A stretch of DNA of 30,515 nucleotides from a virus, in the IMG/VR virus record IMGVR_UViG_3300024518_000518, positions 1 through 30,515 of that record, one strand, 5' to 3'. A program made the translations under genes and the position numbers. The notes beneath the pieces were generated by a model that searched no databases, was not told where the DNA came from, and saw nothing but the letters and a program-made list of their open reading frames with translations. Below are positions 1,913 through 13,628 of the stretch, piece after piece; positions within the stretch are counted from its first letter, which is position 1; each line of letters begins with the position of its first letter.

Positions 1913-2107
1913 TTAAAACCCCACTTGGACAAACCCATTAGGTTTGACTATTGCTAACTGAGCATTCTTCCAACCGATAAGATACCAATTTCCCTCTTTA
2001 TCTTTACCGCTTAGTTCTTTATCTGGATATTGTGCTCCTCCTATACCCTGACCATAACTGTCTTGTAAATATCCTGCGTATTTACCTACTGCCATTTCAA
2101 ATGTCAT
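1913..2107 (-). CDS. Small protein of unknown function (64 aa)
   Basis: The ATG at 2107 shares one base with the stop of ardC (TAATG), indicating translational coupling. The 64-residue product is rich in Gly, Tyr and Trp (YAGYLQDSYGQGIGGAQYP, later WYLIGWKNAQLAIVKPNG) and looks like a compact beta-rich domain. No family is recognised. Coupling to ardC raises the possibility of a helper role in the antirestriction function, without direct support. It ends with two in-frame stops, TAA TAG. Confidence 0.6.
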   Translation of the reverse strand: MTFEMAVGKYAGYLQDSYGQGIGGAQYPDKELSGKDKEGNWYLIGWKNAQLAIVKPNGFVQVGF

Positions 2108-3000
2108 TATGCCACCTCTTTTTTTAAGTTTAATTGTAAATTTTCAAGATAATCAACTGCTTTCTGTGCTTGTGAAAAGGCGGTTATCATTGCCTTAGAA
2201 TCATCTTTGATTGCCTTAATCCAACTGTTAAGATATTGAGCGTGGTCTTTCCTGACAGTTTTTTCTACGTTAAGAATTTGGCACATGAAAGCTGAACCGA
2301 TTTCAGCCACCAATTCTTCTTTAGCGTATTCTTCTTTGTTGTGCATTCCAGTTAACTCTCTTTCGCATCTTGATTTATGACCAGTCCAATGAGTAAGTTC
2401 ATGCAATAAAGTTGAGTAGTAAGTTACATCTGTAATAAAGTTCTCCTTCTTAGGCATTCCTATTGTGTCTTGTATAGGAGAGTAAAAAGCACTATCGCGA
2501 GAATCGTCTATTATTGCTTTCGTATTAGATATATAACTTTCTATTAATTTAAGTTGTTCTGAACTTAATTCAGTTTCATGTTTGTGATCTACTTTTTCAG
2601 TTACAAAATCTTCTATCTGTTCTGCGTTAAATACATTGTATGTTCTCCACATGAAGTAAGTTGGCAGTTGACCAGTTGACCTGTAGTTGGCAAGTTCGCC
2701 GTCTGTTAACCAAGATTCTTTTTTAGGTTTTACGCTAGCGAATACTACTTGGGTTGCTTTAGAGCCTTTCTTGATTTTATAATCTTTCTCGCTCCATTGT
2801 TTAAAAGTTCCCCATTCATTAGAGTTGTAATCTTGGCAAGAAAGCCAAAAATAATTCATACCCCTGTATGCTTTCTTTGTTACATGATTTATAGGTGCGC
2901 CTTTACCAATCCAAGACTTTGTCCAATCAGAACCTTCTGTTTCCATAAGTTCCAAAATCTTAGTCTGAATCTTTTCAAATATTTCATTTTTCTTTTTCAT
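2107..3000 (-). CDS. ardC: ArdC-type antirestriction protein with zincin metallopeptidase domain
   Basis: The 297-residue protein has the two-part build of ArdC: an N-terminal ssDNA-binding-type domain (about residues 5-130, with W26, AYRGMNYFWL at 44-53, WGTFKQW near 63-69 and the KKGSKAT turn) and a zincin-like metallopeptidase domain (about 155-290). The zinc motif HELTHWTGH begins at residue 200, and a downstream EELVAEIG gives the third ligand (E233). In plasmids ArdC binds ssDNA and protects incoming DNA from type I restriction. In a phage it probably protects the genome on entry. It sits 94 bases after the HNH gene with its own promoter-like element, so it may be expressed early. All key residues are present. 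Confidence 0.88.
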   Translation of the reverse strand: MKKKNEIFEKIQTKILELMETEGSDWTKSWIGKGAPINHVTKKAYRGMNYFWLSCQDYNSNEWGTFKQWSEKDYKIKKGSKATQVVFASVKPKKESWLTDGELANYRSTGQLPTYFMWRTYNVFNAEQIEDFVTEKVDHKHETELSSEQLKLIESYISNTKAIIDDSRDSAFYSPIQDTIGMPKKENFITDVTYYSTLLHELTHWTGHKSRCERELTGMHNKEEYAKEELVAEIGSAFMCQILNVEKTVRKDHAQYLNSWIKAIKDDSKAMITAFSQAQKAVDYLENLQLNLKKEVA

Positions 3001-3094: not shown

Positions 3095-3394
3095 TCATTC
3101 TTTTTTAACCAACTTATTTACCATTTCCAGTAATTCATATTCAGTTCCGTATGCTTGAACAAATCTTGCTTTGTATGGATGCCTACTTATTGGTTCCATA
3201 TCACTACCCATTCTGTGATGCTCAAAACATAAAGGCAAGACTTTGAAATGGGTGTCTAACTTAGTCTTACCTTCAATGTGATGTATCTCGCTAGGCACTC
3301 CATAAAACCCCTGTAAGCGACAAACGATACAGCCTAGTTGACTTACACTATCCATGTGCCTTTTCTCTTTAGCGGTGGGGTTTCTACTTTTCAT
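3095..3394 (-). CDS. Ref-like HNH nuclease (99 aa)
   Basis: This small protein has the zinc and active-site pattern of HNH nucleases of the phage P1 Ref type: C22-x2-C25, the His pair H38-H39 in EIHHIEGK, and C56-x2-H59-H60 in PLCFEHHRMG. It then has the RHPYKARF and YGTEYELLE segments that in that family follow the nuclease core. Ref is a RecA-dependent nuclease that makes targeted cuts at displacement loops. This gene lies in the same operon as Erf and a RecB-like nuclease, consistent with a role in phage recombination. An HNH nuclease for another purpose, such as a homing-type or packaging nuclease, is less likely given the context. Confidence 0.8.
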   Translation of the reverse strand: MKSRNPTAKEKRHMDSVSQLGCIVCRLQGFYGVPSEIHHIEGKTKLDTHFKVLPLCFEHHRMGSDMEPISRHPYKARFVQAYGTEYELLEMVNKLVKKE

Positions 3395-3665
3395 CTAATT
3401 TATTTATATCTATGTTTTGTATGTCGTTGTTTATTAATCCTTCCCTTAAATCAATTAACATTCTTTGTGCTATGAATTTGGCAATTTCATTTCTTAAAGG
3501 TAATGTATCTTTATGCACTTTAGAGTTTGGATAACTGAAGCTGTTGCCTAGTGTGCCTAACATATCATTTATTGAACCCTCTATGCCTTTCTTTAAAAAG
3601 TTTGATTGTGCCTCTTTGTATAGGTCACTATTAAAAATAATATCATCTAGTGTTTTATGCTCCAT
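3384..3665 (-). CDS. Uncharacterised protein (93 aa) in the recombination operon
   Basis: A longer frame opens at 3716, but the start at ATG 3665 is preferred because it follows AAAGGAAAAG and keeps a modest 11-base overlap with the preceding gene. The product is mostly helical and polar (MEHKTLDDIIFNSDLYKEAQ...), with a helix containing IAKFIAQRMLIDLREG. No family is recognised. It overlaps the following HNH gene by 11 bases, so the two are probably translated together. Confidence 0.6.
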   Translation of the reverse strand: MEHKTLDDIIFNSDLYKEAQSNFLKKGIEGSINDMLGTLGNSFSYPNSKVHKDTLPLRNEIAKFIAQRMLIDLREGLINNDIQNIDINKLDEK

Positions 3666-3993
3666 ATCTTTTCCTTTCTTCCCTAGCATTAACCATTTTA
3701 GTTCGCCATTCTTCAAAGCCTACATCTAATGATTTAAGTTCAATCTTTAATGCCGATAGTTGACCTTTTGCTACACCTACTTTTAATCTAAATTGATATA
3801 ACGAATCATCATTATCAGCGTATGTTTTTTGAGCAGATACAGTCTTAACACCTTTAGCAGTAGCCATGAGTTCTAACTGTGCTTGTAATCTTTTAACGTC
3901 AGCTTCACATTTTAGCACCTCATATTCTGCTTTAGAAACACGAGGTGCTAAAGACCTTATCTTATCTTGCCAAGATTCTACTTGTTCATTCAT
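3655..3993 (-). CDS. Coiled-coil protein of the recombination operon (112 aa)
   Basis: The protein is almost wholly alpha-helical with two coiled-coil stretches (about residues 14-46 and 68-95), a central segment with KGVKTVSAQKTYADNDDSLY and a basic end REERKRYGA. From memory, similar proteins occur next to single-strand-binding genes in environmental phages, but I know of no assigned function. It starts two bases after the candidate ssDNA-binding gene and overlaps the next gene by 11 bases. A structural or partner role in recombination or replication complexes is a reasonable guess. Confidence 0.65.
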   Translation of the reverse strand: MNEQVESWQDKIRSLAPRVSKAEYEVLKCEADVKRLQAQLELMATAKGVKTVSAQKTYADNDDSLYQFRLKVGVAKGQLSALKIELKSLDVGFEEWRTKMVNAREERKRYGA

Positions 3994-3995
3994 GC

Positions 3996-4412
3996 TTAAA
4001 AAGGTATGTCGTCAGATGATTTATCTTCTACTTCAGTCTGAACAACTTTATTTTCAATTATTAAATTACCCTCTGAATCATAAGGTGTCAATTTAACGCT
4101 TGTATAGTCTGTGCCTTTATCGGACATATTCGCCCAACCTCCAAATTTATATACAGTTCCTTCGTGGGTTATTTTTCCTCCTATATCTGGTGTGCCTTTG
4201 CTTTTTTTATCTTCAGGCTTGTTGTAATGTAAAAGACCCAAAGAAACTACCAATTCATATTTATCTGGATAATTGCCGTCTCCACTGTACTTTAAGATAC
4301 CGCAGTATTTATCTTCTCCATTTATATTAATTTTACCTTTTCTTGGTACTGTTACATTATTCTCAAGGAACATATTCCCTGTGTTATTTTTAATTACATA
4401 TTTTTCAGACAT
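3996..4412 (-). CDS. Candidate phage single-stranded DNA-binding protein (138 aa)
   Basis: The protein is beta-rich for about 110 residues and ends in an acidic, flexible tail finishing with DDIPF (residues 134-138). That tail closely matches the DDDIPF tip by which bacterial SSB recruits partner proteins. Residues 80-110 contain ITHEGTVYKFGGWANMSDK, a pattern of short strands consistent with an OB-like domain. Position directly after erf and a winged-helix gene supports a role coating ssDNA during recombination and replication. The core does not clearly match classical SSB, so this is assigned from the tail, fold impression and context. The start overlaps the preceding gene by 8 bases. Confidence 0.6.
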   Translation of the reverse strand: MSEKYVIKNNTGNMFLENNVTVPRKGKININGEDKYCGILKYSGDGNYPDKYELVVSLGLLHYNKPEDKKSKGTPDIGGKITHEGTVYKFGGWANMSDKGTDYTSVKLTPYDSEGNLIIENKVVQTEVEDKSSDDIPF

Positions 4413-4677
4413 TATTTTCTCCTGTTATTAGTCTATATTGATAACCCTTACCTTCGGTTATTCTTTTTTTTATTACAATATCTCCATTCAAAGGCAATCC
4501 GTATTTGACCCTTGAAGGATATTTTCTCAATTCTCTTATTGAAGCAGACAATGAAGGCTCTCCGTAGAACCTTCCTGTCATATCTTGTATATTTTTTTGC
4601 AGACTCCAAAAAGTCCACCATTGTCCATTTCTCATGGATAAATATACAAAGTCATTAATAGAATTAGGTTTGCTCAT
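4405..4677 (-). CDS. Small winged-helix DNA-binding protein (90 aa)
   Basis: The predicted pattern is helix (SINDFVYLSMRNGQW), turn, recognition helix (SLSASIRELRKYPS) and a beta wing (DIVIKKRITEGKGYQYRLI). This is the order expected for a winged-helix domain. It overlaps the end of erf by 14 bases and the start of the candidate ssDNA-binding gene by 8 bases, so all three are likely produced from one message. Such proteins sit in the recombination modules of many phages; whether this one regulates the operon or loads recombination proteins is not visible. Confidence 0.65.
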   Translation of the reverse strand: MSKPNSINDFVYLSMRNGQWWTFWSLQKNIQDMTGRFYGEPSLSASIRELRKYPSRVKYGLPLNGDIVIKKRITEGKGYQYRLITGENNV

Positions 4678-5281
4678 ATACTGCTATGAGTCTTTCATAT
4701 CCTTCTATGAATTTTTTAACCCTAGTGTCAGCTTTTGCTTGTTTGATAATTGTTTTATTAACTTCATATAATCCTATGGAATCTGTATCAGGATTTTCAG
4801 AAGGTAAAACTTTACCTATAGATGATAAAAACTTGGTTGGGTCAGTATCTTCAAATAAAGTTTCCCCTTCGGCATTAGCAAATGCATATTTAACTTGCCT
4901 TCGCATTGCTTTCTCGGCGTCATCATCTTCGTCTGCAGTAGCAATACCGCAAGCCATCTGTAAAGAATATCTTTTTGCATAAGATAGAGCCGAACCGAAT
5001 GCTTGTGGGTCATTCTTAGAAGCAGGTATATACACTTGCCCTGACGTTATAGAAGCACCGTGACCCATAAATACAGTTTCAATAGAAACACCATTCTCTG
5101 ATAAATGGCTTATCTGTTGTAGATATATGCCTTCATCATTTAATGGTTTTTTAATGGTATCTAGTACTTGCTTTAACGACGCATAACTACTCTTAAAGAA
5201 AGGGTTTTTAGCATCATTTACGACATGGTCAATTTTTTCTTGTGCTTTGACCAAAGCAGTAATCAATGTTTGATTATTCAT
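4664..5281 (-). CDS. erf: Erf-family single-strand annealing recombinase
   Basis: The product matches the ERF family: N-terminal helix with LVKAQEKIDHVVNDAKNPFF, then SSYASLKQVLDTIKKPLNDEG (Y-A-S-L is typical), a strand segment around SIETVFMGHG and the conserved QAFGSALSYAKRYSLQ followed by an acidic DEDDDAEKA. Erf proteins form rings on ssDNA and anneal complementary strands, giving phage recombination without RecA. A start four codons upstream (5293) is possible, but ATG 5281 has GGAG seven bases before it and forms an ATGA overlap with the nuclease gene. That overlap supports coupled production of nuclease and annealing protein, the usual pairing. Confidence 0.88.
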   Translation of the reverse strand: MNNQTLITALVKAQEKIDHVVNDAKNPFFKSSYASLKQVLDTIKKPLNDEGIYLQQISHLSENGVSIETVFMGHGASITSGQVYIPASKNDPQAFGSALSYAKRYSLQMACGIATADEDDDAEKAMRRQVKYAFANAEGETLFEDTDPTKFLSSIGKVLPSENPDTDSIGLYEVNKTIIKQAKADTRVKKFIEGYERLIAVYEQT

Positions 5282-6075
5282 TTTATACTCCATATTGTTT
5301 TAGCAAACTTAATTTCTTCCGCACCCCATTTCCAGTCATCTAGGTTTGGATAAAAAAGATTTGCTATCTCATGTTTATCATTTGAATAGGACAAGAGGTT
5401 CATTATCTTTAATGCTACTTGTTCTACAGTGTGAATGTGCTTATCTACTTGATGTACTGTTTCAGATACTACCTGTTCATCTTTGGCAGTAACTACTATG
5501 TAATCAAGAATAGGCACACAATCTTCTGCCTTTGCGTAAACAGAAACCTGTCTAGCGTGAGCATCAGAAACTTTGTAGGGTCGCCTTGCGGTGGTTTTTA
5601 TATCCCTAATAGTATCGTTGTACTTTAAATCTATGAACCCAATTATAGGAACAGGGATAGATTCAAGGTTAAGTTCAATTCTTTTTTGGTATTCAGTAGG
5701 TTGCCCTAAATCTTCATAAAAATCTATTGCAGTTTTTATGTATCTAGGAATCCTGTCTGCTTCTTCTAAAAACTTTTTATGATTTATCTCTTGTGTTGGG
5801 TATTCACTTTTACAATTATCATAAGTAACTTGGTATTCAAAAAGTGCAGACTGTATTGTTTCTCCTAAATCTATGGGTTTTTCTGTGAAGCCAAAATATT
5901 TACCAACTCCATGATCGGTTACAGTGCCTCGCCACATTGCGGGACCGCCACCGTTTCTGAATTTGAATAGATATCTCATTATCCAAATACAAGGGTCGTC
6001 TATGTAACTGTTGATAGAGGAAGGGGAAAGGTGTTCTATATCATGTATAGAAAATACATCATTATTATTTTTCAT
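5278..6075 (-). CDS. PD-(D/E)XK nuclease of the RecB/Cas4-like class
   Basis: The 265-residue protein has the signature order of RecB-like nucleases: LSPSSINSYIDDPCIW near residue 16, a conserved His (H55 in GTVTDHGVGKY), the active-site GFIDL (D149), D158-I-K160 (RDIKTT) and the downstream Q176-x3-Y180. These catalyse metal-dependent DNA cleavage. It lacks the C-terminal Cys cluster of iron-sulphur Cas4 proteins. As the first gene of the leftward operon with an ATGA overlap to erf, it is the expected partner exonuclease that resects ends so that Erf can anneal them. The start has a clear AGGAAAT-type upstream region and a divergent promoter region behind it. Confidence 0.87.
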   Translation of the reverse strand: MKNNNDVFSIHDIEHLSPSSINSYIDDPCIWIMRYLFKFRNGGGPAMWRGTVTDHGVGKYFGFTEKPIDLGETIQSALFEYQVTYDNCKSEYPTQEINHKKFLEEADRIPRYIKTAIDFYEDLGQPTEYQKRIELNLESIPVPIIGFIDLKYNDTIRDIKTTARRPYKVSDAHARQVSVYAKAEDCVPILDYIVVTAKDEQVVSETVHQVDKHIHTVEQVALKIMNLLSYSNDKHEIANLFYPNLDDWKWGAEEIKFAKTIWSIK

Positions 6076-6119
6076 TTTATTTCCTGTTCAATTTATTGAT
6101 TGACTCTGTAACTGGTTTC

Positions 6120-6140
6120 ATTATAATTCATTTCTGGAAT
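6120..6140 (-). promoter_or_regulatory. Candidate leftward promoter/operator in the divergent control region
   Basis: Between the two opposite operons (6076-6155) the leftward strand reads TTATTCCAGAAATGAAT and runs directly into TATAAT at 6125-6120, a perfect -10 box. ATTC and GAAT form a short inverted repeat around the centre. The TTATTCC start matches the elements before ardC and the replication gene. The Cro-like protein encoded just to the right is a natural candidate to bind here. The -35 region is weak, which would suit an activator- or repressor-controlled promoter. Confidence 0.5.
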
Positions 6141-6155
6141 AATTAAAACTAATTT

Positions 6156-6359
6156 ATGAAATTAAAAAAATACTTAAAAACAAATAACTATACCCAAATG
6201 TCTTTTATTAAAGAGATAGAAGAAAGAGAAGGATTGCGAATTCCTCAAGGCACTTTAGCTAAATGGATAACTGGAACTAGAATACCTAGAAAAAAAGAGA
6301 TGCTATTATTAATTCGCATGACAGACGGCTTGGTGACCCCTAATGATTTTTATATATAA
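6156..6359 (+). CDS. Cro/CI-type helix-turn-helix regulator (67 aa)
   Basis: The small protein has the order LKKYLKTNNYTQMSFIKEIE, then GTLAKWITGTRIPRKKEM, then LIRMTDGLVTPNDFYI. This corresponds to the scaffold helix, the recognition helix with W-x-TG-x-R-x-P and the terminal helix with T-x-G-x-V-x-x-x-D-F of Cro-like phage repressors. Nothing is fused to it, so it would bind as a small dimer. It is the first gene of the rightward arm, next to the divergent promoter region, and probably sets the balance of the two arms. The upstream ribosome binding site is weak, suggesting low-level production. Confidence 0.8.
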   Translation: MKLKKYLKTNNYTQMSFIKEIEEREGLRIPQGTLAKWITGTRIPRKKEMLLLIRMTDGLVTPNDFYI

Positions 6360-6370
6360 AAGGAGAGAAA

Positions 6371-7006
6371 ATGTCTTATAAAGTTGAGATGATTGATATA
6401 GCTGAACTAATTCCATATGAAAACAATCCAAGAGATAACAAAAATTCAATAGAAAAAGTTGCTGAAAGCATTCGTAATTATGGATTTAAAGTTCCTGTTG
6501 TTGTAGATGAAAATAATATAATTTTAGCAGGTCATACAAGGGTTCTTGCAGCCAAATTGCTCGGTCTAAAAAAAGTGCCTACACACACGGCCACTGGTCT
6601 TTCAAAGCAGCAAAAAACTGCTTTCCGCATAATGGATAATAAGGTGCACGAATTTTCAGAGTGGGATATGGGTTTGTTGGCTAAAGAATTTGAAAATTTA
6701 GCTGAACAAGACTTTGATTTAGGTTTGACTGGTTTTGAATTCTCAGAAATTGGAAAAATCACTAAGGGTGCGATGCTAGAGTTTGACGCTCCTGATTTAG
6801 AGCTATCAGACACTGACTGGTCTGCAGAAGGCGTATATATCCCCGAAACAAATATTAAACAATTTATGCTTTTATATGACATATCAACAATAGAAGAAAT
6901 GAAAACGATGATAGAGGCTCTACGAGAGGAATATAAAATAGAAAGTCCTTCAGACATTATCTTTGAGGCAGTAACGCGTGAATACAAAAAAAATACCAAT
7001 CTATAA
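6371..7006 (+). CDS. ParB/sulfiredoxin-like domain protein of the DNA modification cassette
   Basis: Residues 5-90 form a ParB-type N-terminal domain: IPYENNPRDN, SIRNYGFKVPVVVDENN, and the GHTRVLAAK motif (GHTR at 54-57), with the KVPTHTA end. The C-terminal part (about 155-211, with KQFMLLYDISTIEEMKTMIE and SPSDIIFEAV) resembles the segment that follows ParB domains in phage modification proteins. ParB-like domains can bind or hydrolyse nucleotides or cut DNA. There is no methyltransferase domain. The gene has a strong ribosome binding site (AAAGGAGAG) and overlaps the TET/JBP gene by 29 bases. From published comparative work (Iyer, Aravind and colleagues) ParB genes recur next to phage TET/JBP enzymes, so a part in locating or tailoring modification is likely. 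Confidence 0.85.
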   Translation: MSYKVEMIDIAELIPYENNPRDNKNSIEKVAESIRNYGFKVPVVVDENNIILAGHTRVLAAKLLGLKKVPTHTATGLSKQQKTAFRIMDNKVHEFSEWDMGLLAKEFENLAEQDFDLGLTGFEFSEIGKITKGAMLEFDAPDLELSDTDWSAEGVYIPETNIKQFMLLYDISTIEEMKTMIEALREEYKIESPSDIIFEAVTREYKKNTNL

Positions 7007-7904
7007 TCTTAAGCCTGTTTGTAGTTACGAAGAATCTCATAAATACGCAAGCAATTACGCAACAGACAAAGACTATTCAGTCTTAATCAATAGCGACTGC
7101 GACGCATATAAAGAGGACGGGCAGCCTTTATTTTTCTATCGTAAGAATCGCATACCTGCGAGCATTTGTAAAACAGCTTATAAGAATTTAAGGAAGGCAG
7201 CGCAGCCCACTGAGAATCGCGGCATGGCGGCTGGAATTTTAGACAACGAAGAACATTTAAAACACAAGCAATCTAGTGTCACAAGATTCCAAAGAATTAA
7301 GAAAGACGGTACATTGAGTCGGGTTCATAGAGCGAAGAAAGTTTGTTCAGGGATAGCAGGTTATTTTGATAGGAATGCAAGGAGACCTTATTGTAGGCAA
7401 ACAGCTTTCACAGAACATAACCGTAAAGAGTTTACTGCTTCTATACCCTACCTCAAGAGTATAAATTCTCTCTTTGCTGAAGCTTGCCCAGAACGGTATA
7501 ACGCACAAGCAGAATATGCGGGGAAAACCAATAAAGATTTTATTATCTCTGGTACTGTTTTTACTACCGTTACGGTTAATCTTAACTTTCAGACAGCCTA
7601 CCATTTAGATGCAGGTGATTTGAAAGCAGGGTTAGGAAACATAGCCGTTCTCAAGGCAGGGAAGTATGAAGGTGGATATACGGTGATGCCAAGATATGAT
7701 TGCGCCTTTGATTTGGGGAGCGGTGATGTTTGTTTTTTTGATGTGCATGAATATCACGGCAATACTAAAATTAAGGCTAAGGCTCCGTATGAGCGTATCT
7801 CCGTTGTTTGCTACTATCGTGAAAAAATGACTGACTGCGGAAGTATGTTAGAAGAATTAGACAAAGTAAAGAATAGAAAAGAGGGGGATTCTATTGGAAA
7901 GTAA
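6978..7904 (+). CDS. TET/JBP-family 2-oxoglutarate/Fe(II) DNA base dioxygenase
   Basis: This 308-residue protein carries the full catalytic set of the TET/JBP family: H209-x-D211 in TAYHLDAGD, H260 in DVHEYHGN and the 2-oxoglutarate-binding R273 in ERISVVCYYREKM, which closely parallels the TRISLVFYQHK of animal TET. The preceding GTVFTTVTVNLNFQ and GGYTVMPRYDCAFDLGSGD also match the family. The enzymes oxidise the methyl group of 5-methylcytosine or thymine in DNA to a hydroxymethyl group. The start is GTG 6978 with GAGG ten bases upstream; no ATG exists before residue 83, so GTG is favoured. No cytosine methyltransferase is encoded in the window, leaving thymine (JBP-like activity) or an externally methylated cytosine as substrate. 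Its product would be the acceptor for the genes that follow. Confidence 0.9.
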   Translation: MNTKKIPIYNLKPVCSYEESHKYASNYATDKDYSVLINSDCDAYKEDGQPLFFYRKNRIPASICKTAYKNLRKAAQPTENRGMAAGILDNEEHLKHKQSSVTRFQRIKKDGTLSRVHRAKKVCSGIAGYFDRNARRPYCRQTAFTEHNRKEFTASIPYLKSINSLFAEACPERYNAQAEYAGKTNKDFIISGTVFTTVTVNLNFQTAYHLDAGDLKAGLGNIAVLKAGKYEGGYTVMPRYDCAFDLGSGDVCFFDVHEYHGNTKIKAKAPYERISVVCYYREKMTDCGSMLEELDKVKNRKEGDSIGK

Positions 7905-10032
7905 ACGTAATTTTCTGAACAAAGATACTGAAGACAGCATCGTACCTTTTGGAGCTAATCGTTGGTCTGATTATCTTTTCAGACTAACCCCAGTAGAACA
8001 AAAGTCAGATGGCGTTTGGTATAAAAGGGAAGACAAGTTTGCTCTCTTTGGAATTAACACTCTCAATGGTTCTAAATGCCGACAATTACTTTACCTTTTT
8101 GAATCTAGACCGCAAGGAGCTGATACCGTTATACACGGAACCAATGTCAATGCTTCTCCACAAACACCAATGACAGCCGCGATGGCTGAGCATTATGGTC
8201 TAAGGTGCATACAAGTCGCAGGAGGAACAAATTTTAATTCTATTTCAAAGAAAGATTTACCGCGATTTGCCACTATGTTTGGGGCAGAGTATGACCTTTC
8301 TTGCCGTAGTGGTTTTAATGTGGGGGTTCAAAAGCGCGTAAGAACGATAATGAAAGATTTTGATAATTGCTTCACCATAGAAAGAGACATTACTTTAGAC
8401 CACGCAAGAGCTGAAAACACAGCATCAAAAATTCTCTCCTTTCACGAGGTAGGGGCAAGACAAGTAAAAAATATACCTGACCATATAGAAGATTTGATCA
8501 TACCTTTTGGTTCAGCCAATTCAGCAACCTCTATCATGTTGGGTTTATCTATGTATAAGCCGAAAAATGTCTGCCGCGTCCACTTAATTAATGTGGGAGT
8601 AGACAAGAGAGATTACATGTTTGAGAGGTTAGGTCTTATGGGCGCTGATGTTTCTGCGTATGACTACTTCTGGTATGACACTAAAATACCCTATAGCAAG
8701 CTCTTTAAGGGGGTACAGATAGATGATATGACGTTTCACCCAAGATATGAGGCAAAGGTGATTAACTATATGAGAGACAACTTGCCTGAGTTGATGAAAG
8801 ACACGACCTTGTTTTGGAATATTGGCTCATACCCTGATATTAATACTGTAGCTAAGAACCTCAATCTGAATGTCCCTAAAAAAGTTAAAGAATATACAGA
8901 GAAAACAAGCGCGTTAATCGGTTCATACAGCAAGCTCCACAATGATAAAGAAATTAAACTCCTAAAATACGGTATGGATTTCCGAGAGCCGAAGTATCGC
9001 AGAGAAGTATTTTTGCGTCTTTATGAATTTCACCTAAAACACAAGAGCCATCCTGGAGGCGTTTATTTTGCGTTCCCTTGGCTTACGAAAGAGTACGAAT
9101 TGAACATAGACCAGAAACTTTGGCTAGCATTCATTAATGGCTGCTCACAAAATATTATAACCAGTTGGCATATATTCAATAAATTTCCAGAGCCAAAAGG
9201 CTTAAACTTGGATTTGGTAGATGATTGGTGGAATAAAACGCAGCACAAATTTAAGTCTGGTTCTGGATGGGACGCTGACAGGAGATATTTCAAAGTAGGG
9301 AAAACAGGCATGCCCAATTGTATGCGCTCGTATATAAAGCAAGTCAATAAATATGGTTCGCAAGAGAAGATGTTCAATGCTTTATGTGAAAAAAACGATC
9401 CTTATTTAAACTTTGGTGTTGTCTGGGACTTTGTTAGAGATAATTTCCTTTCCTTTGGGAGATTATCCACGTTTTCATATTTGGAGTATTTAAAGATTCA
9501 AGGCGTAAACATAGATTGTAATAATCTTTTCATAGAGGATATTAATGGCTCGCGTTCTCACCGCAATGGGATTTGCAAGGTGTTAGGTAGAGATGATTTA
9601 GATTGGTGGAAAACAAAGGTGGCCTATTCCCCAGAAATAATACGTTGGTTGAAAGGGGAGGCTGTTAAGTTGTTAGATGAGGCAAAGGAGCGTTACCCGC
9701 ACGAAGACGCAGGTTATTTCACCCTAGAATCTGCTCTGTGTAATTACAAATCATGGCACAGACCTAATCGCCGATACCCAAATGTTTATATGGATATGTT
9801 TCACAACAGGATTAAATACGCTGAGAAAGAATGGGGACTTAAAGAGGGAGAAATATTTTGGAAAATGAGGACAGACTGTTTGCCCAAAGCGTTATTACTT
9901 GAGGAAAACCCAAAAGATTTAGGCTTGTGCCCAGAAAAGCAAAATCATTATTTATACACAGGTCAACCCGTCATGATGGATGGTGATTGGGAATGTTTTA
10001 ATAATGACTATAATCGTTTGGTTAACTCATGA
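7894..10032 (+). CDS. PLP-dependent enzyme fused to an amino acid:DNA transferase-like domain
   Basis: The 712-residue protein has two parts. Residues 20-325 resemble fold-type II PLP enzymes such as ACC deaminase and D-cysteine desulfhydrase: WYKREDKFA, the probable PLP lysine K61 in NGSKCRQLLYL, NASPQ at 86-90 for substrate binding, and the phosphate loop FGSANSATSIMLGL (205-218). Residues 360-712 form an all-helical domain (LWLAFINGCSQNIITSWHIF near 409-428, and LESALCNYK later followed by RRYPNVYMD) resembling the amino acid:DNA transferase domains linked to phage thymine hypermodification. I infer transfer of an amino acid to the activated base followed by PLP-dependent trimming. The start is TTG 7894, placed behind GAGGGGG; the next in-frame Met is residue 93, inside the PLP domain. 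It overlaps its neighbours by 11 and 4 bases. Confidence 0.8.
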   Translation: MESKRNFLNKDTEDSIVPFGANRWSDYLFRLTPVEQKSDGVWYKREDKFALFGINTLNGSKCRQLLYLFESRPQGADTVIHGTNVNASPQTPMTAAMAEHYGLRCIQVAGGTNFNSISKKDLPRFATMFGAEYDLSCRSGFNVGVQKRVRTIMKDFDNCFTIERDITLDHARAENTASKILSFHEVGARQVKNIPDHIEDLIIPFGSANSATSIMLGLSMYKPKNVCRVHLINVGVDKRDYMFERLGLMGADVSAYDYFWYDTKIPYSKLFKGVQIDDMTFHPRYEAKVINYMRDNLPELMKDTTLFWNIGSYPDINTVAKNLNLNVPKKVKEYTEKTSALIGSYSKLHNDKEIKLLKYGMDFREPKYRREVFLRLYEFHLKHKSHPGGVYFAFPWLTKEYELNIDQKLWLAFINGCSQNIITSWHIFNKFPEPKGLNLDLVDDWWNKTQHKFKSGSGWDADRRYFKVGKTGMPNCMRSYIKQVNKYGSQEKMFNALCEKNDPYLNFGVVWDFVRDNFLSFGRLSTFSYLEYLKIQGVNIDCNNLFIEDINGSRSHRNGICKVLGRDDLDWWKTKVAYSPEIIRWLKGEAVKLLDEAKERYPHEDAGYFTLESALCNYKSWHRPNRRYPNVYMDMFHNRIKYAEKEWGLKEGEIFWKMRTDCLPKALLLEENPKDLGLCPEKQNHYLYTGQPVMMDGDWECFNNDYNRLVNS

Positions 10033-10559
10033 AATGTTTAGCGATAGGGGGTGAGCCCGCTACTGGGAAAACTACACTGATGCGAGAAGTGTTAAAAATG
10101 GTTAAACCCAGTAAAAAGTTTAAATATGGCTTGTTGAGAGGGTACATTGAACCTTTTGCAAATGTCAGCGTATTAGGTATTTATGAACACCAAGAGGTGT
10201 TTGCAGGAACTGATAAATTGTCAATGGCAGTTCAAAAAGACTTTGATAAATTTGTTCAACTTAAAACTAAAAATATTATTTTTGAGGGGGATAGGTTGTT
10301 TACAAAAAAAAACCTTTTATATTTAACAAAAAATTACGAGACTAGAATAATCATTCTTAAAAATGAAAAGAAAATTATTGCTAGTAGGCACATAAACAGA
10401 GGGGACAATCAATCAGAGACGTTTAAAAAATCTAGGCACACTAAAATATCTAATATAATTTCTGAGCCAAATTTGAAACATATAGAATTTTATAAATTGA
10501 ACGATATATCTGAATCAGAATCTTTGGCAGCGGAGATATACAATTGGTTTTTTATATAA
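10029..10559 (+). CDS. P-loop kinase, candidate hydroxymethyl-base DNA kinase
   Basis: This 176-residue protein has a Walker A loop GEPATGKT (residues 8-15), a GTDKLSMAVQ segment (about 61-70), a second acidic strand IIFEGDRLF (about 88-96) and a basic LID-like stretch with SRHINRGD and SRHTK. This is the profile of a small nucleotide or nucleic-acid kinase. In Vi1- and M6-type phages a P-loop kinase phosphorylates 5-hydroxymethyluracil in DNA so that an amino acid or amine can replace the phosphate. Position directly after the TET/JBP and transferase genes, with an ATGA overlap, makes the same step the best guess here. It is strikingly AT-rich compared with its two upstream neighbours. An ordinary nucleotide kinase is the alternative. 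Confidence 0.75.
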   Translation: MKCLAIGGEPATGKTTLMREVLKMVKPSKKFKYGLLRGYIEPFANVSVLGIYEHQEVFAGTDKLSMAVQKDFDKFVQLKTKNIIFEGDRLFTKKNLLYLTKNYETRIIILKNEKKIIASRHINRGDNQSETFKKSRHTKISNIISEPNLKHIEFYKLNDISESESLAAEIYNWFFI

Positions 10560-11300: not shown

Positions 11301-13001
11301 ATGGAAAATAAAACACCACAAGAACACGGAATAAAATTAAGAACCACAGAACATGGCTCACAAAAAATTAAGTGCCCTGAATGTCAACCGCCACACAAGC
11401 AATTAGATAATCCTTTAACTGTTACCATTAACGCAGAAGGCACAGTCTGGTATTGTCATCATTGTGATTGGAGAGGGTCTTATTTTGATAACCCTAAATC
11501 TAGTTTTCCATTACCTAAAAAGACTTATACAAAACCGCCACCACCTAAACAAAACAACACAGATGATATGTATTCCTTCTTTAAAGGTAGGGGGATAGAA
11601 AAAAAGGTAGTTGATAAGTTCAAAATATTTGATGAAAACAAATGGTTTGGTTTTCAGTACTTTAATGAAAATAACGAATTAGAAAATATAAAATACAGAA
11701 CAGTAGATAAAGGCTTTAGGCAAACATCAGGAGCAAAATCAATACTTTATAACTACAACAATGTTCACAATAAAGAAACTGTTGTATTTGTAGAGGGAGA
11801 AATGGATGTATTAAGTTGCGAAATGGTTGGCTATCCTGCAACTACATTACCAAATGGAGCACCCAAAGAAGCCAAGTTCAACAAGAATGATGCAAGATTT
11901 ACTGCTCTAACTAATTGTCCGCTCAAAGCAAAAAAGATTATTATATTTACTGATACAGATACTTCTGGCAGAGCCTTACATAAAGAGTTGTTGCATAGAT
12001 TTGGTAAAGACGTAGCTTGGTTTGTGAGACTTCCTGAAGATTGCAAAGATGCTAATGATGTTTTAATGAAACACGGGAAGGTAGAATTACAAAATATAAT
12101 TAACAAAGCAGAACCTTACCCTATAGATGGTTTATATACTGCTAACGACTACCACGGACAGTTACATGATTTATATGAGGGTAACTATGAAAAGCCTTTA
12201 GACGTCGGTATACAAGGGTTAGATGATATCTACAAGATAATGCCTTCCACCTTTCATACAATCACAGGTATACCTAATCATGGGAAGTCATTGTTCCTTG
12301 ACCAAATACTTTTAACTTTAGCAAAAAACCACGATTGGAAGTTTGCGGTGTTTTCTCCCGAACACAGCACACAGTTCCATATAAGAAGAATGGCACAGAT
12401 GTATATTCACAAAGGATTTGATGAAGGGTTAAATAACAGAATGTCCGTTACAGAATTAAACGAAGCAATAGAGTTTATACACAACCATTTCTACTTTATA
12501 GAAACAAGGGAAAGTGTGCCTTCTATAGATTTAATACATAGCATAGTTAAATCAAGCATCTTTAAGCATGGAATAAATGGCTTTGTTATAGACCCCTTTA
12601 ATGAAGTAAGTGCTAAACGTGCAGGTAACGCTAGAGAAGATGAACATATAAGAGACTTCATATCCTTATGTAAACGATTCAGCCGTATATACGAGATTGT
12701 TACATGGGTGGTTGCACATCCTACAAAACTTCAAAAGGGAACGGATGGCTCTTACGCACCACCTACTGCTTATGATATTAGTGGGGCAGCTCATTGGCAC
12801 AACATGTCAGACGTGGTTATAACAGTGCACAGAGACTTTGACACCAACACTACAAGAGTAATAACAAGGAAAATAAGGGAACAAGACTTATACGGAAAGA
12901 TAGGGGAAGCTAAGTTTGTATATAATTTTAATGACCATTGTTTTAAGCCAGAAATCATATCAACAATAAGTGATTGGAATGATATAGCTTTCAATAAATA
13001 A
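11301..13001 (+). CDS. Bifunctional DNA primase-helicase (T7 gp4/Twinkle type)
   Basis: The 566-residue protein has an N-terminal zinc finger (C25, C28, C52, C55), a TOPRIM primase core with FVEGEMDVLS (E166) and FTDTDTSGRALHKEL (D218, D220), and a RecA-like hexameric helicase domain with Walker A GIPNHGKS (323-330), a Walker B region GFVIDPFNEV and the conserved VVAHPTK histidine motif. It primes and unwinds DNA at the replication fork. It starts three bases after the replication organiser, with GGGG in the preceding stop region as ribosome binding site, so the two are a unit. No phage DNA polymerase is in the window, so either it lies elsewhere or the host polymerase is used. Confidence 0.93.
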   Translation: MENKTPQEHGIKLRTTEHGSQKIKCPECQPPHKQLDNPLTVTINAEGTVWYCHHCDWRGSYFDNPKSSFPLPKKTYTKPPPPKQNNTDDMYSFFKGRGIEKKVVDKFKIFDENKWFGFQYFNENNELENIKYRTVDKGFRQTSGAKSILYNYNNVHNKETVVFVEGEMDVLSCEMVGYPATTLPNGAPKEAKFNKNDARFTALTNCPLKAKKIIIFTDTDTSGRALHKELLHRFGKDVAWFVRLPEDCKDANDVLMKHGKVELQNIINKAEPYPIDGLYTANDYHGQLHDLYEGNYEKPLDVGIQGLDDIYKIMPSTFHTITGIPNHGKSLFLDQILLTLAKNHDWKFAVFSPEHSTQFHIRRMAQMYIHKGFDEGLNNRMSVTELNEAIEFIHNHFYFIETRESVPSIDLIHSIVKSSIFKHGINGFVIDPFNEVSAKRAGNAREDEHIRDFISLCKRFSRIYEIVTWVVAHPTKLQKGTDGSYAPPTAYDISGAAHWHNMSDVVITVHRDFDTNTTRVITRKIREQDLYGKIGEAKFVYNFNDHCFKPEIISTISDWNDIAFNK

Positions 13002-13010
13002 GTCTTAATT

Positions 13011-13037
13011 GTTCCTTTTTGGAATCTTATGTATTAT
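13011..13037 (+). promoter_or_regulatory. Inverted-repeat promoter-like site upstream of the packaging genes
   Basis: GTTCCTTTTTGGAATC, a near-perfect inverted repeat (TTCC-N5-GGAA), lies at 13011-13026 and is followed by TATTAT at 13032-13037, 24 bases before the terminase small subunit. It shares TTCC and a nearby GG with the sites before ardC and the replication gene, but its -10-like box is closer. It may be the start of the late transcript or an operator for it. Confidence 0.4.
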
Positions 13038-13061
13038 CATCTTGGGAAAGATTGAGAATAT

Positions 13062-13628
13062 ATGAGTAAAAAATCTACAACAAACAAACTTACCACAGAT
13101 TTAAAACTGGAAATACGCAACCTTTATGTGCAAGGAATAAGTAATGAAGAAGGCACAAGAAAAACATATACACTTGATGAACTGTATAAAAAGCACAACG
13201 TAGCTAAATCAACACTTTACAGGGTTTCACAAAAAGAAAATTGGAAGGTTGAAAGAGAACAATTCCAACAAAGATATTTAGCAGATTTAGATGTAGAAAG
13301 GACAAGGAATCTAACAGAAGAATCAAAGAAGTTTGACTTAAACAGTCTCAATTTAGCCAAAGCACTTATGGCAACAGTAGGTCAGAATATTAGAACGAAT
13401 ACTGAAAACATAAATAATGGAGCAAAGAATTTCCTTCCTCATCAATTAAACGCCCTTGCAGGTGCAGCTTTATCATCACAAAGATTGGCTAAACTAGCAT
13501 TAGGCGAAAACACTGAGAACGTAAACATAAATGCAAACATACACGACGAAGCCTTCAGAGAAGCTATGGAATTGCTTGACACAGTTGCAGACGGACGCAG
13601 AGAAAGCAACAATAAGCCTATACACTGA
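13062..13628 (+). CDS. terS: Terminase small subunit
   Basis: The N-terminal 75 residues contain a helix-turn-helix typical of terminase small subunits (TTDLKLEIRNLYVQGISNEE, TLDELYKKHNVAKSTLYRVS, KENWKVEREQFQQRY). The rest is helical and fits an oligomerisation domain. The protein would recognise the packaging site in phage DNA and direct the large subunit to it. It lies immediately upstream of the large subunit, the canonical order. Its C-terminal 98 bases overlap the large-subunit reading frame, an unusually long overlap. The ribosome binding site is weak (GGGAAAG 14 bases upstream). Confidence 0.85.
   Translation: MSKKSTTNKLTTDLKLEIRNLYVQGISNEEGTRKTYTLDELYKKHNVAKSTLYRVSQKENWKVEREQFQQRYLADLDVERTRNLTEESKKFDLNSLNLAKALMATVGQNIRTNTENINNGAKNFLPHQLNALAGAALSSQRLAKLALGENTENVNINANIHDEAFREAMELLDTVADGRRESNNKPIH

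Follow-up and report, generated by a model that had tools for sequence, protein, structure and literature searches.

Thymine as the probable substrate of a phage TET/JBP dioxygenase encoded beside an amino acid:DNA transferase

TET proteins oxidize DNA bases in animals. A TET/JBP dioxygenase gene found in a phage with no visible methyltransferase raises the question of whether its product oxidizes thymine or methylated cytosine. The base J pathway of kinetoplastids (JBP1/JBP2) uses a TET/JBP dioxygenase and no methyltransferase, and thymine is the proposed substrate. Phage systems that combine a C5 methyltransferase with a TET enzyme were reportedly described by Burke et al. in 2021. The phage pathways to hypermodified thymine that are well described are not known to start from anything but a nucleotide pool modified before replication. 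The TET gene considered here is the second of four overlapping plus-strand genes in a stretch of viral DNA of 30,515 bases, which was analysed as a whole and is referred to as the window. The four genes are as follows.

6371-7006, + strand: ParB-like protein (ParB_N), first gene of the cassette, overlapping the TET gene by 29 bases
6978-7904, + strand: TET/JBP Fe(II)/2-oxoglutarate (2OG) dioxygenase, 308 amino acids (aa), GTG start, second gene of the cassette
7894-10032, + strand: PLP-dependent enzyme fused to an amino acid:DNA transferase (ADDT), 712 aa, overlapping the TET gene by 11 bases
10029-10559, + strand: P-loop kinase, 176 aa, Walker A motif GGEPATGKTT, overlapping the fusion gene by 4 bases

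On the minus strand, the window also carries a recombination block at 3095-6075 (a RecA-dependent nuclease, an Erf annealase and a PD-(D/E)XK nuclease) and, at 2107-3000, a gene for an ArdC-type antirestriction protein (ArdcN, 3.6e-21; MPTase-PolyVal, 1.1e-43), a second possible anti-restriction gene of the same phage. An overlapping record of this phage (L233) encodes a FecR-domain protein and a 2OG-Fe(II) oxygenase (PF13640), at 5494-6558 and 12987-13541.

The TET protein matched the Pfam model Tet_JBP with an E value of 6.4e-26 and 91 bits (cut-off 34.9). Its metal ligands, H209, D211 and H260, and its 2OG arginine, R273, which the preliminary description of this DNA had reported as intact, were all found at those positions in a residue check and are invariant across a 42-sequence alignment of relatives. 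Searches of solved structures with the single protein as the query returned chance matches only, and with an alignment profile they returned TET2 plus chance matches and no other structure. The profile of alignment A1 reached human TET2 by sequence with an E value of 2.2e-6, the match consisting of two pieces that are weak when taken singly. In this pairing, H209 and D211 fall on the HRD of TET2, R273 on the R of TRISLVFYQHK, Y279 on its Y and R281 on its H; the base-side residues of the phage enzyme, by alignment to TET2, are D214, Y279 and R281. We take the TET2 residues concerned, and their contacts with the base, to be those numbered H1382, D1384, N1387, H1881, R1896, Y1902 and H1904. An AlphaFold2 model built from 42 aligned sequences had a mean pLDDT of 92.3 and a pTM of 0.90, and its best match among known structures was TET2 (Z 20.7, 259 residues, rmsd 3.6), followed by CMD1 and NgTet1 (18.8), with the best AlkB-type structure well below at 14.1. 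Sequence matches and the predicted fold together confirm 6978-7904 as the gene of an intact, real TET/JBP dioxygenase. Names attached to this family elsewhere can mislead: PHROG 6059, which matches the protein, bears the ill-fitting name queuine tRNA-ribosyltransferase, and in other records the TET goes under the name of SNF2 DNA repair protein.

The preliminary description had also pointed to a kinase and a transferase-like domain nearby, and both are present. In the fusion protein, the PLP part, in which Lys61 lies in the motif expected of a PLP lysine, covers approximately aa 1-316, and the ADDT part approximately aa 361-712. The latter matched Pfam PF18724 at aa 401-625 (E value 7.2e-23; 7.9e-26 in a six-frame search), and a profile of it matched the transferase of phage Vi01 (7e-82). 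The PLP part resembles the PLP enzyme of Salmonella phage PS5 (Kuttervirus), both as a tblastn match and by profile (2.7e-96); its match to Pfam PALP (1.6e-4) was below the cut-off, and M6 gp52 gave no match in the profile comparison that matched the PS5 enzyme. Fused PLP-ADDT genes also occur in loci L165-L168, and two separate genes in other loci. In L220 (888-6320), two ParB-like genes, TET, ADDT, a PLP enzyme and a kinase stand in one row, each separate. The ParB-like protein matched Pfam ParB_N (1.8e-6), PHROG 620 (1.2e-47) and PHROG 498, a family of ParB-DNA methyltransferase proteins (2.2e-41). The P-loop kinase at 10029-10559 is a candidate for the kinase of a hydroxymethylated base in DNA.

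According to the preliminary description, the known phage TET enzymes for cytosine need a C5 methyltransferase. As it had claimed, no C5-cytosine methyltransferase (METHYLTRANSFERASE) was found in the 30,515-base window, either with PF00145 or in a six-frame motif scan, and neither the thymidylate-synthase family (PF00303) nor ThyX was found in it. The window record is probably a fragment, because its last open reading frame runs off the end. A second record, G001 (34,118 bases), shares 20.66 kb with it at 99.97% identity and reaches 13,458 bases further to the left; PF00145, PF00303 and ThyX were all absent from it. The search of the rest of the genome for a C5 methyltransferase or a dUMP hydroxymethylase, which the preliminary description had proposed, thus found neither in approximately 44 kb of this phage, the window and G001 combined, both of which may be incomplete records. 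Among 56 records with related TETs, chosen from 89 loci, 55 had no C5 methyltransferase, the exception being Melnitz, whose TET is distant; the shorter loci, screened solely with the motif and for resemblance to the enzyme of Melnitz, gave no match. The same absence holds for eight of nine GenBank phage genomes with related TETs (32-168 kb, described as complete), namely those of HTVC112P, P12024L, Cr30, DLP6, S-CBWM1, C48C1, Kharcho and Adawi. A profile scan of bacterial genome contigs for prophage relatives matched 30 stretches, none of which was a relative.

The neighbours of the TET bear on which base is modified. Homologues of the window ADDT were found in 374 phage records, most of them from phages of Salmonella, Vibrio, Klebsiella and Escherichia. 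For Vi01, M6 and PhiW-14, 5hmdU is thought to be the common intermediate, according to the accessible text of PMC6449724. In a panel of 11 ADDT genomes (these three and eight hand-picked from the homologue list), the thymidylate-synthase family occurred in 10 and a TET in one, with no overlap. The one is Magpie, whose TET match, at 27.8 bits, falls short of the curated cut-off, and which lacks the thymidylate-synthase family. PF18724 was detected in 10 of the 11, that is, in Magpie and nine of the ten thymidylate-synthase genomes; it missed Montesquieu, whose protein is 39.6% identical to the window ADDT (E value 1e-53). A twelfth ADDT genome, Cr30, breaks the pattern with TET, ADDT and thymidylate synthase together, giving 10 genomes with the thymidylate-synthase family and no TET, one with a TET and no such gene, and one with both. 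The Cr30 enzyme scored 373 bits as against 27-86 bits in the panel, and is for that reason read as an ordinary ThyA.

Among 50 records with ADDT relatives, 36 had a TET, one had a member of the thymidylate-synthase family (Montesquieu, which has no TET) and one had a C5 methyltransferase (G092, approximately 64 kb from its TET). In each of the 13 virus records of this set that were without a TET, the sequence begins at the PLP or ADDT gene or immediately ahead of it. The TET therefore seems, on gene content, to stand in for the dUMP hydroxymethylase, which would make thymine its likely substrate; if one set of tailoring enzymes can receive its substrate from a pre-replicative hydroxymethylase or from a TET, then 5-hydroxymethyluracil would be the shared intermediate.

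The lineage of TETs that are accompanied by a C5 methyltransferase differs from this. With the Melnitz TET as the query, 71 loci were obtained, or 72 with Melnitz itself, and 67 of these have a C5 methyltransferase, nearly always just upstream of the TET (some kb downstream in L144 and L153); the other five contigs have their first base at position 1-28 of the TET gene. In the viral contig scans, TETs of the Cr30 type were represented by one locus and those of the Kharcho type by four, and the methyltransferase-linked sample is the Melnitz lineage. None of the 67 methyltransferase-TET loci had a ParB relative or an ADDT homologue, 24 had a related kinase and eight a TET-associated glycosyltransferase. 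In the 80 loci of the window TET clade, by comparison, a ParB-like gene was found in 76, ADDT in 40, a kinase in 41 and a glycosyltransferase in 27. The C5 methyltransferase was found in none of the 80, and ADDT and glycosyltransferase never occurred together; neither of these two was present, within the fetched stretch, in 13 loci. Cr30, which lies outside this set, has ADDT and a weak glycosyltransferase match of 31 bits.

The two kinds of cassette also differ at one residue on the base side of the TET. R281 aligns with TET2 H1904, eight positions after the 2OG arginine. At this +8 position, counted over 205 TET loci that include duplicates of some contigs, loci without a C5 methyltransferase had Arg (114) or Leu (19), and loci with one had Asp (60) or Gly (3), the residue being unreadable in four cut sequences; the five cut members of the Melnitz lineage had Asp. 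In a less redundant set of 51 sequences, the corresponding numbers were 30 Arg and 9 Leu against 10 Asp and 1 Gly linked to a methyltransferase, plus one cut sequence with Asp. The polarity would fit, as Arg could donate a hydrogen bond to O4 or O2 of thymine, and a carboxylate could accept one from the amino group of cytosine. However, the Asp/Gly TETs form one lineage in the tree (support 100/100), so shared ancestry explains the residue contrast equally well. This tree carries a long-branch warning; the C5 label needs two changes on it, since L139, a cut locus, falls within the Melnitz lineage. D214, at the TET2 N1387 position, was rejected as a discriminator, as Asp is found there in both kinds of cassette.

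Two other genes were considered as clues to the base and set aside. The preliminary description had used the kinase as an argument for thymine, which does not hold: in profile-profile comparisons, the window kinase was closest to that of Melnitz (E value 4.9e-33), and much less close to M6 gp54 (7.3e-7, probability 91.8) and Vi01_196 (2.9e-4). Outside the clade it is thus most closely related to a kinase beside a C5 methyltransferase, as in 24 of the 67 such loci. Moreover, it had no match to the Pfam models of 5hmdU kinases, which M6 gp54 and Vi01_196 do match, and its score against Ploopntkinase3 (0.0022) was below the cut-off. Cassette kinases (L231 5686-6249, the NC_025422.1 gene under H23, L162 2863-3462) bear other names in their records, such as terminase small subunit in M6 and RefSeq Cr30 and adenylate kinase in Magpie, and PHROG 800, matched by the window kinase, has the same terminase name; these names are likely misannotations.

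The second clue would be the TET-associated glycosyltransferases, which act on hydroxymethylcytosine derivatives in T6-like phages according to the accessible text of PMC13390438. A glycosyltransferase of this TAGT family lies beside close relatives of the window TET, for example in L005 (67% TET identity). As evidence for cytosine it was rejected, since eight of the 67 loci that pair a methyltransferase with a TET have it, and so do 32 of the 133 Arg/Leu loci that have no methyltransferase. L005 (10918-12451) has the TET followed by a fusion of cytidylyltransferase-like and mannose-phosphate-isomerase-like parts and a TET-associated glycosyltransferase, a gene set that suggests a dedicated sugar nucleotide. 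In L002 (16409-18674), from Nonlabens phage P12024L, genes for a TET-associated glycosyltransferase and an N6/N4-type DNA methylase come after the TET, and no C5 methyltransferase was found in the 35.6-kb genome of this phage. P12024L is, on its gene content, a candidate for a base-J-like pathway in a cultured phage.

What, then, would this cassette do? The hydroxymethyluracil that the preliminary description had held to be the simpler expectation is supported by the absence of the methyltransferase, by the homology of the ADDT and PLP parts and by R281, and thymine is at present the better supported of the two candidate substrates. We infer, with a probability of about 0.8, that the TET hydroxylates thymine after replication, in place of a dUMP hydroxymethylase, and that the kinase, ADDT and PLP enzymes tailor the product. 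The sequence data establish which genes are present and in what order, the lack of the alternative genes and the replacement pattern; the substrate, each reaction and its place in the pathway, the product and its purpose are our interpretation. The TET would hydroxylate thymine of the phage DNA at its 5-methyl group, giving 5-hydroxymethyluracil; the kinase would phosphorylate the new hydroxyl; the ADDT domain would swap the phosphate for an amino acid; and the PLP domain would trim or decarboxylate the adduct, in the manner of ViI-type phages. The pathway would end in an aminoalkylated thymine, which may shield the DNA from host nucleases. As a speculation, the ParB-like protein might bring the modifying enzymes to the DNA or load them onto it. 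The DNA of ViI carries 5-(2-aminoethoxy)methyluridine, according to the accessible text of PMC11721090. Because the ADDT and PLP parts in the window are of the ViI type, the phage may, as a guess by analogy that we hold loosely, make a product related to that base. An equally tentative idea is that one phage TET scaffold serves two bases with the +8 residue as the switch, enzyme and partner changing together as a unit, and the ParB-like partner supplying the targeting as the methyltransferase does; a C5 methyltransferase with Asp or Gly might then go with methylcytosine, and a ParB-like protein with Arg or Leu with thymine, where the TET would take over from dUMP hydroxymethylase and feed ADDT or a glycosyltransferase.

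It appears unlikely that the TET instead oxidizes 5-methylcytosine supplied by a methyltransferase of the host or by an unsequenced phage gene, with the kinase and the transferase acting on hydroxymethylcytosine. The absence of a C5 methyltransferase from approximately 44 kb of the phage and from eight of nine related GenBank phages argues against such a route, even if the genome may be incomplete and a host could supply methylcytosine. The window kinase is nearest to that of a C5-methyltransferase-TET cassette, and TET-associated glycosyltransferase genes adjoin close TET relatives, both of which favour cytosine; on the contrary, ADDT homologues are found in none of the 67 methyltransferase-TET loci, and ADDT and PLP enzymes belong to phages that hypermodify thymidine. 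One ADDT-TET record, G092, does have a C5 methyltransferase, albeit approximately 64 kb away. Dependence on a host enzyme would, in addition, presumably restrict the modification to few sites and few hosts.

A TET of both tastes, which oxidizes thymine and methylcytosine alike and feeds the cassette with whichever methyl group is present, is hard to believe in. The kinase and glycosyltransferase families are common to both kinds of cassette, and D214 (the TET2 N1387 position) and Y279 are kept in both, but the base-side +8 residue divides with the cassette type, and ADDT was found only with the methyltransferase-free kind, apart from the distant case of G092. As for a TET outside the hypermodification pathway, whether a chance neighbour of the ADDT and kinase genes or an enzyme for different bases, we give it almost no credence: the genes overlap in one operon, ADDT and glycosyltransferase occur in 40 and 27 of the 80 clade loci, and a TET occurs in 36 of the 50 ADDT-relative records, the rest being cut or Montesquieu. 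The 13 clade loci with neither ADDT nor glycosyltransferase in the fetched stretch are what speaks for it.

The preferred reading, oxidation of thymine by the TET, places the window between several known systems. Vi01, M6 and PhiW-14 share with it an ADDT-family transferase and a kinase near the ADDT gene, and the ViI type has a PLP enzyme and an ADDT homologous to those in the window. These three phages have a gene of the thymidylate-synthase family and no TET, so that their hydroxymethylation precedes replication, whereas the window has a TET and no such gene. The window alone has a ParB-like gene and PLP and ADDT in one protein, and its kinase lacks the match to the 5hmdU-kinase models seen in M6 gp54 and Vi01_196. 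With the Melnitz type, the window shares the enzyme superfamily and fold and, in part of the loci, related kinases and glycosyltransferases (24 and eight of 67); that type has Asp or Gly at +8, a C5 methyltransferase in 67 of 72 loci and neither ADDT nor ParB in those 67, whereas the window has ADDT, ParB and Arg and no C5 methyltransferase. The likeness to base J lies in a TET/JBP dioxygenase without a methyltransferase and with thymine as the proposed substrate; the difference lies in glucosylation there, and in the phosphorylation and amino-acid transfer proposed here. Relatives of the P12024L type, with a TET, a glycosyltransferase and no C5 methyltransferase, are closer to base J.

The idea of a thymine TET in a phage is not new. 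A thymine-TET prediction may also be contained in Iyer et al. (2013), Lee et al. (2018), Burke et al. (2021) and Lee et al. (2022). In the accessible text of PMC11955845, a five-gene cassette of Rhodococcus equi phage Tonitrus is annotated as possible thymidine hypermodification, and includes a ParB-like protein, a tet-like J-binding protein, an aGPT-Pplase2-domain protein and a 5-hmU DNA kinase; its likeness to the window is one of annotation. In the accessible open-licence PMC literature, the Tonitrus note is the one text found to join a TET to thymidine hypermodification in a phage, and no statement of the replacement pattern or of the residue contrast was found there; the accessible parts of PMC12783734 and PMC8670742 contain nothing on thymine TETs. 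DLP6 was rejected as a witness of restriction resistance, as the accessible text of PMC5349666 names a digest with 18 enzymes without stating its outcome.

If the reading is true, then a small phage that relies on the host polymerase and dTTP pool could modify its own DNA, and bacterial viruses would have an equivalent of the step that opens base J synthesis. Laboratories would also gain an enzyme for introducing 5-hydroxymethyluracil into ordinary DNA. The same pairing of genes occurs in phages that are in culture, namely Magpie and its cluster relatives (Mycobacterium smegmatis) and Cr30 (Caulobacter crescentus), which makes the question testable, and an answer in favour of thymine would show what decides the choice of a TET between cytosine and thymine.
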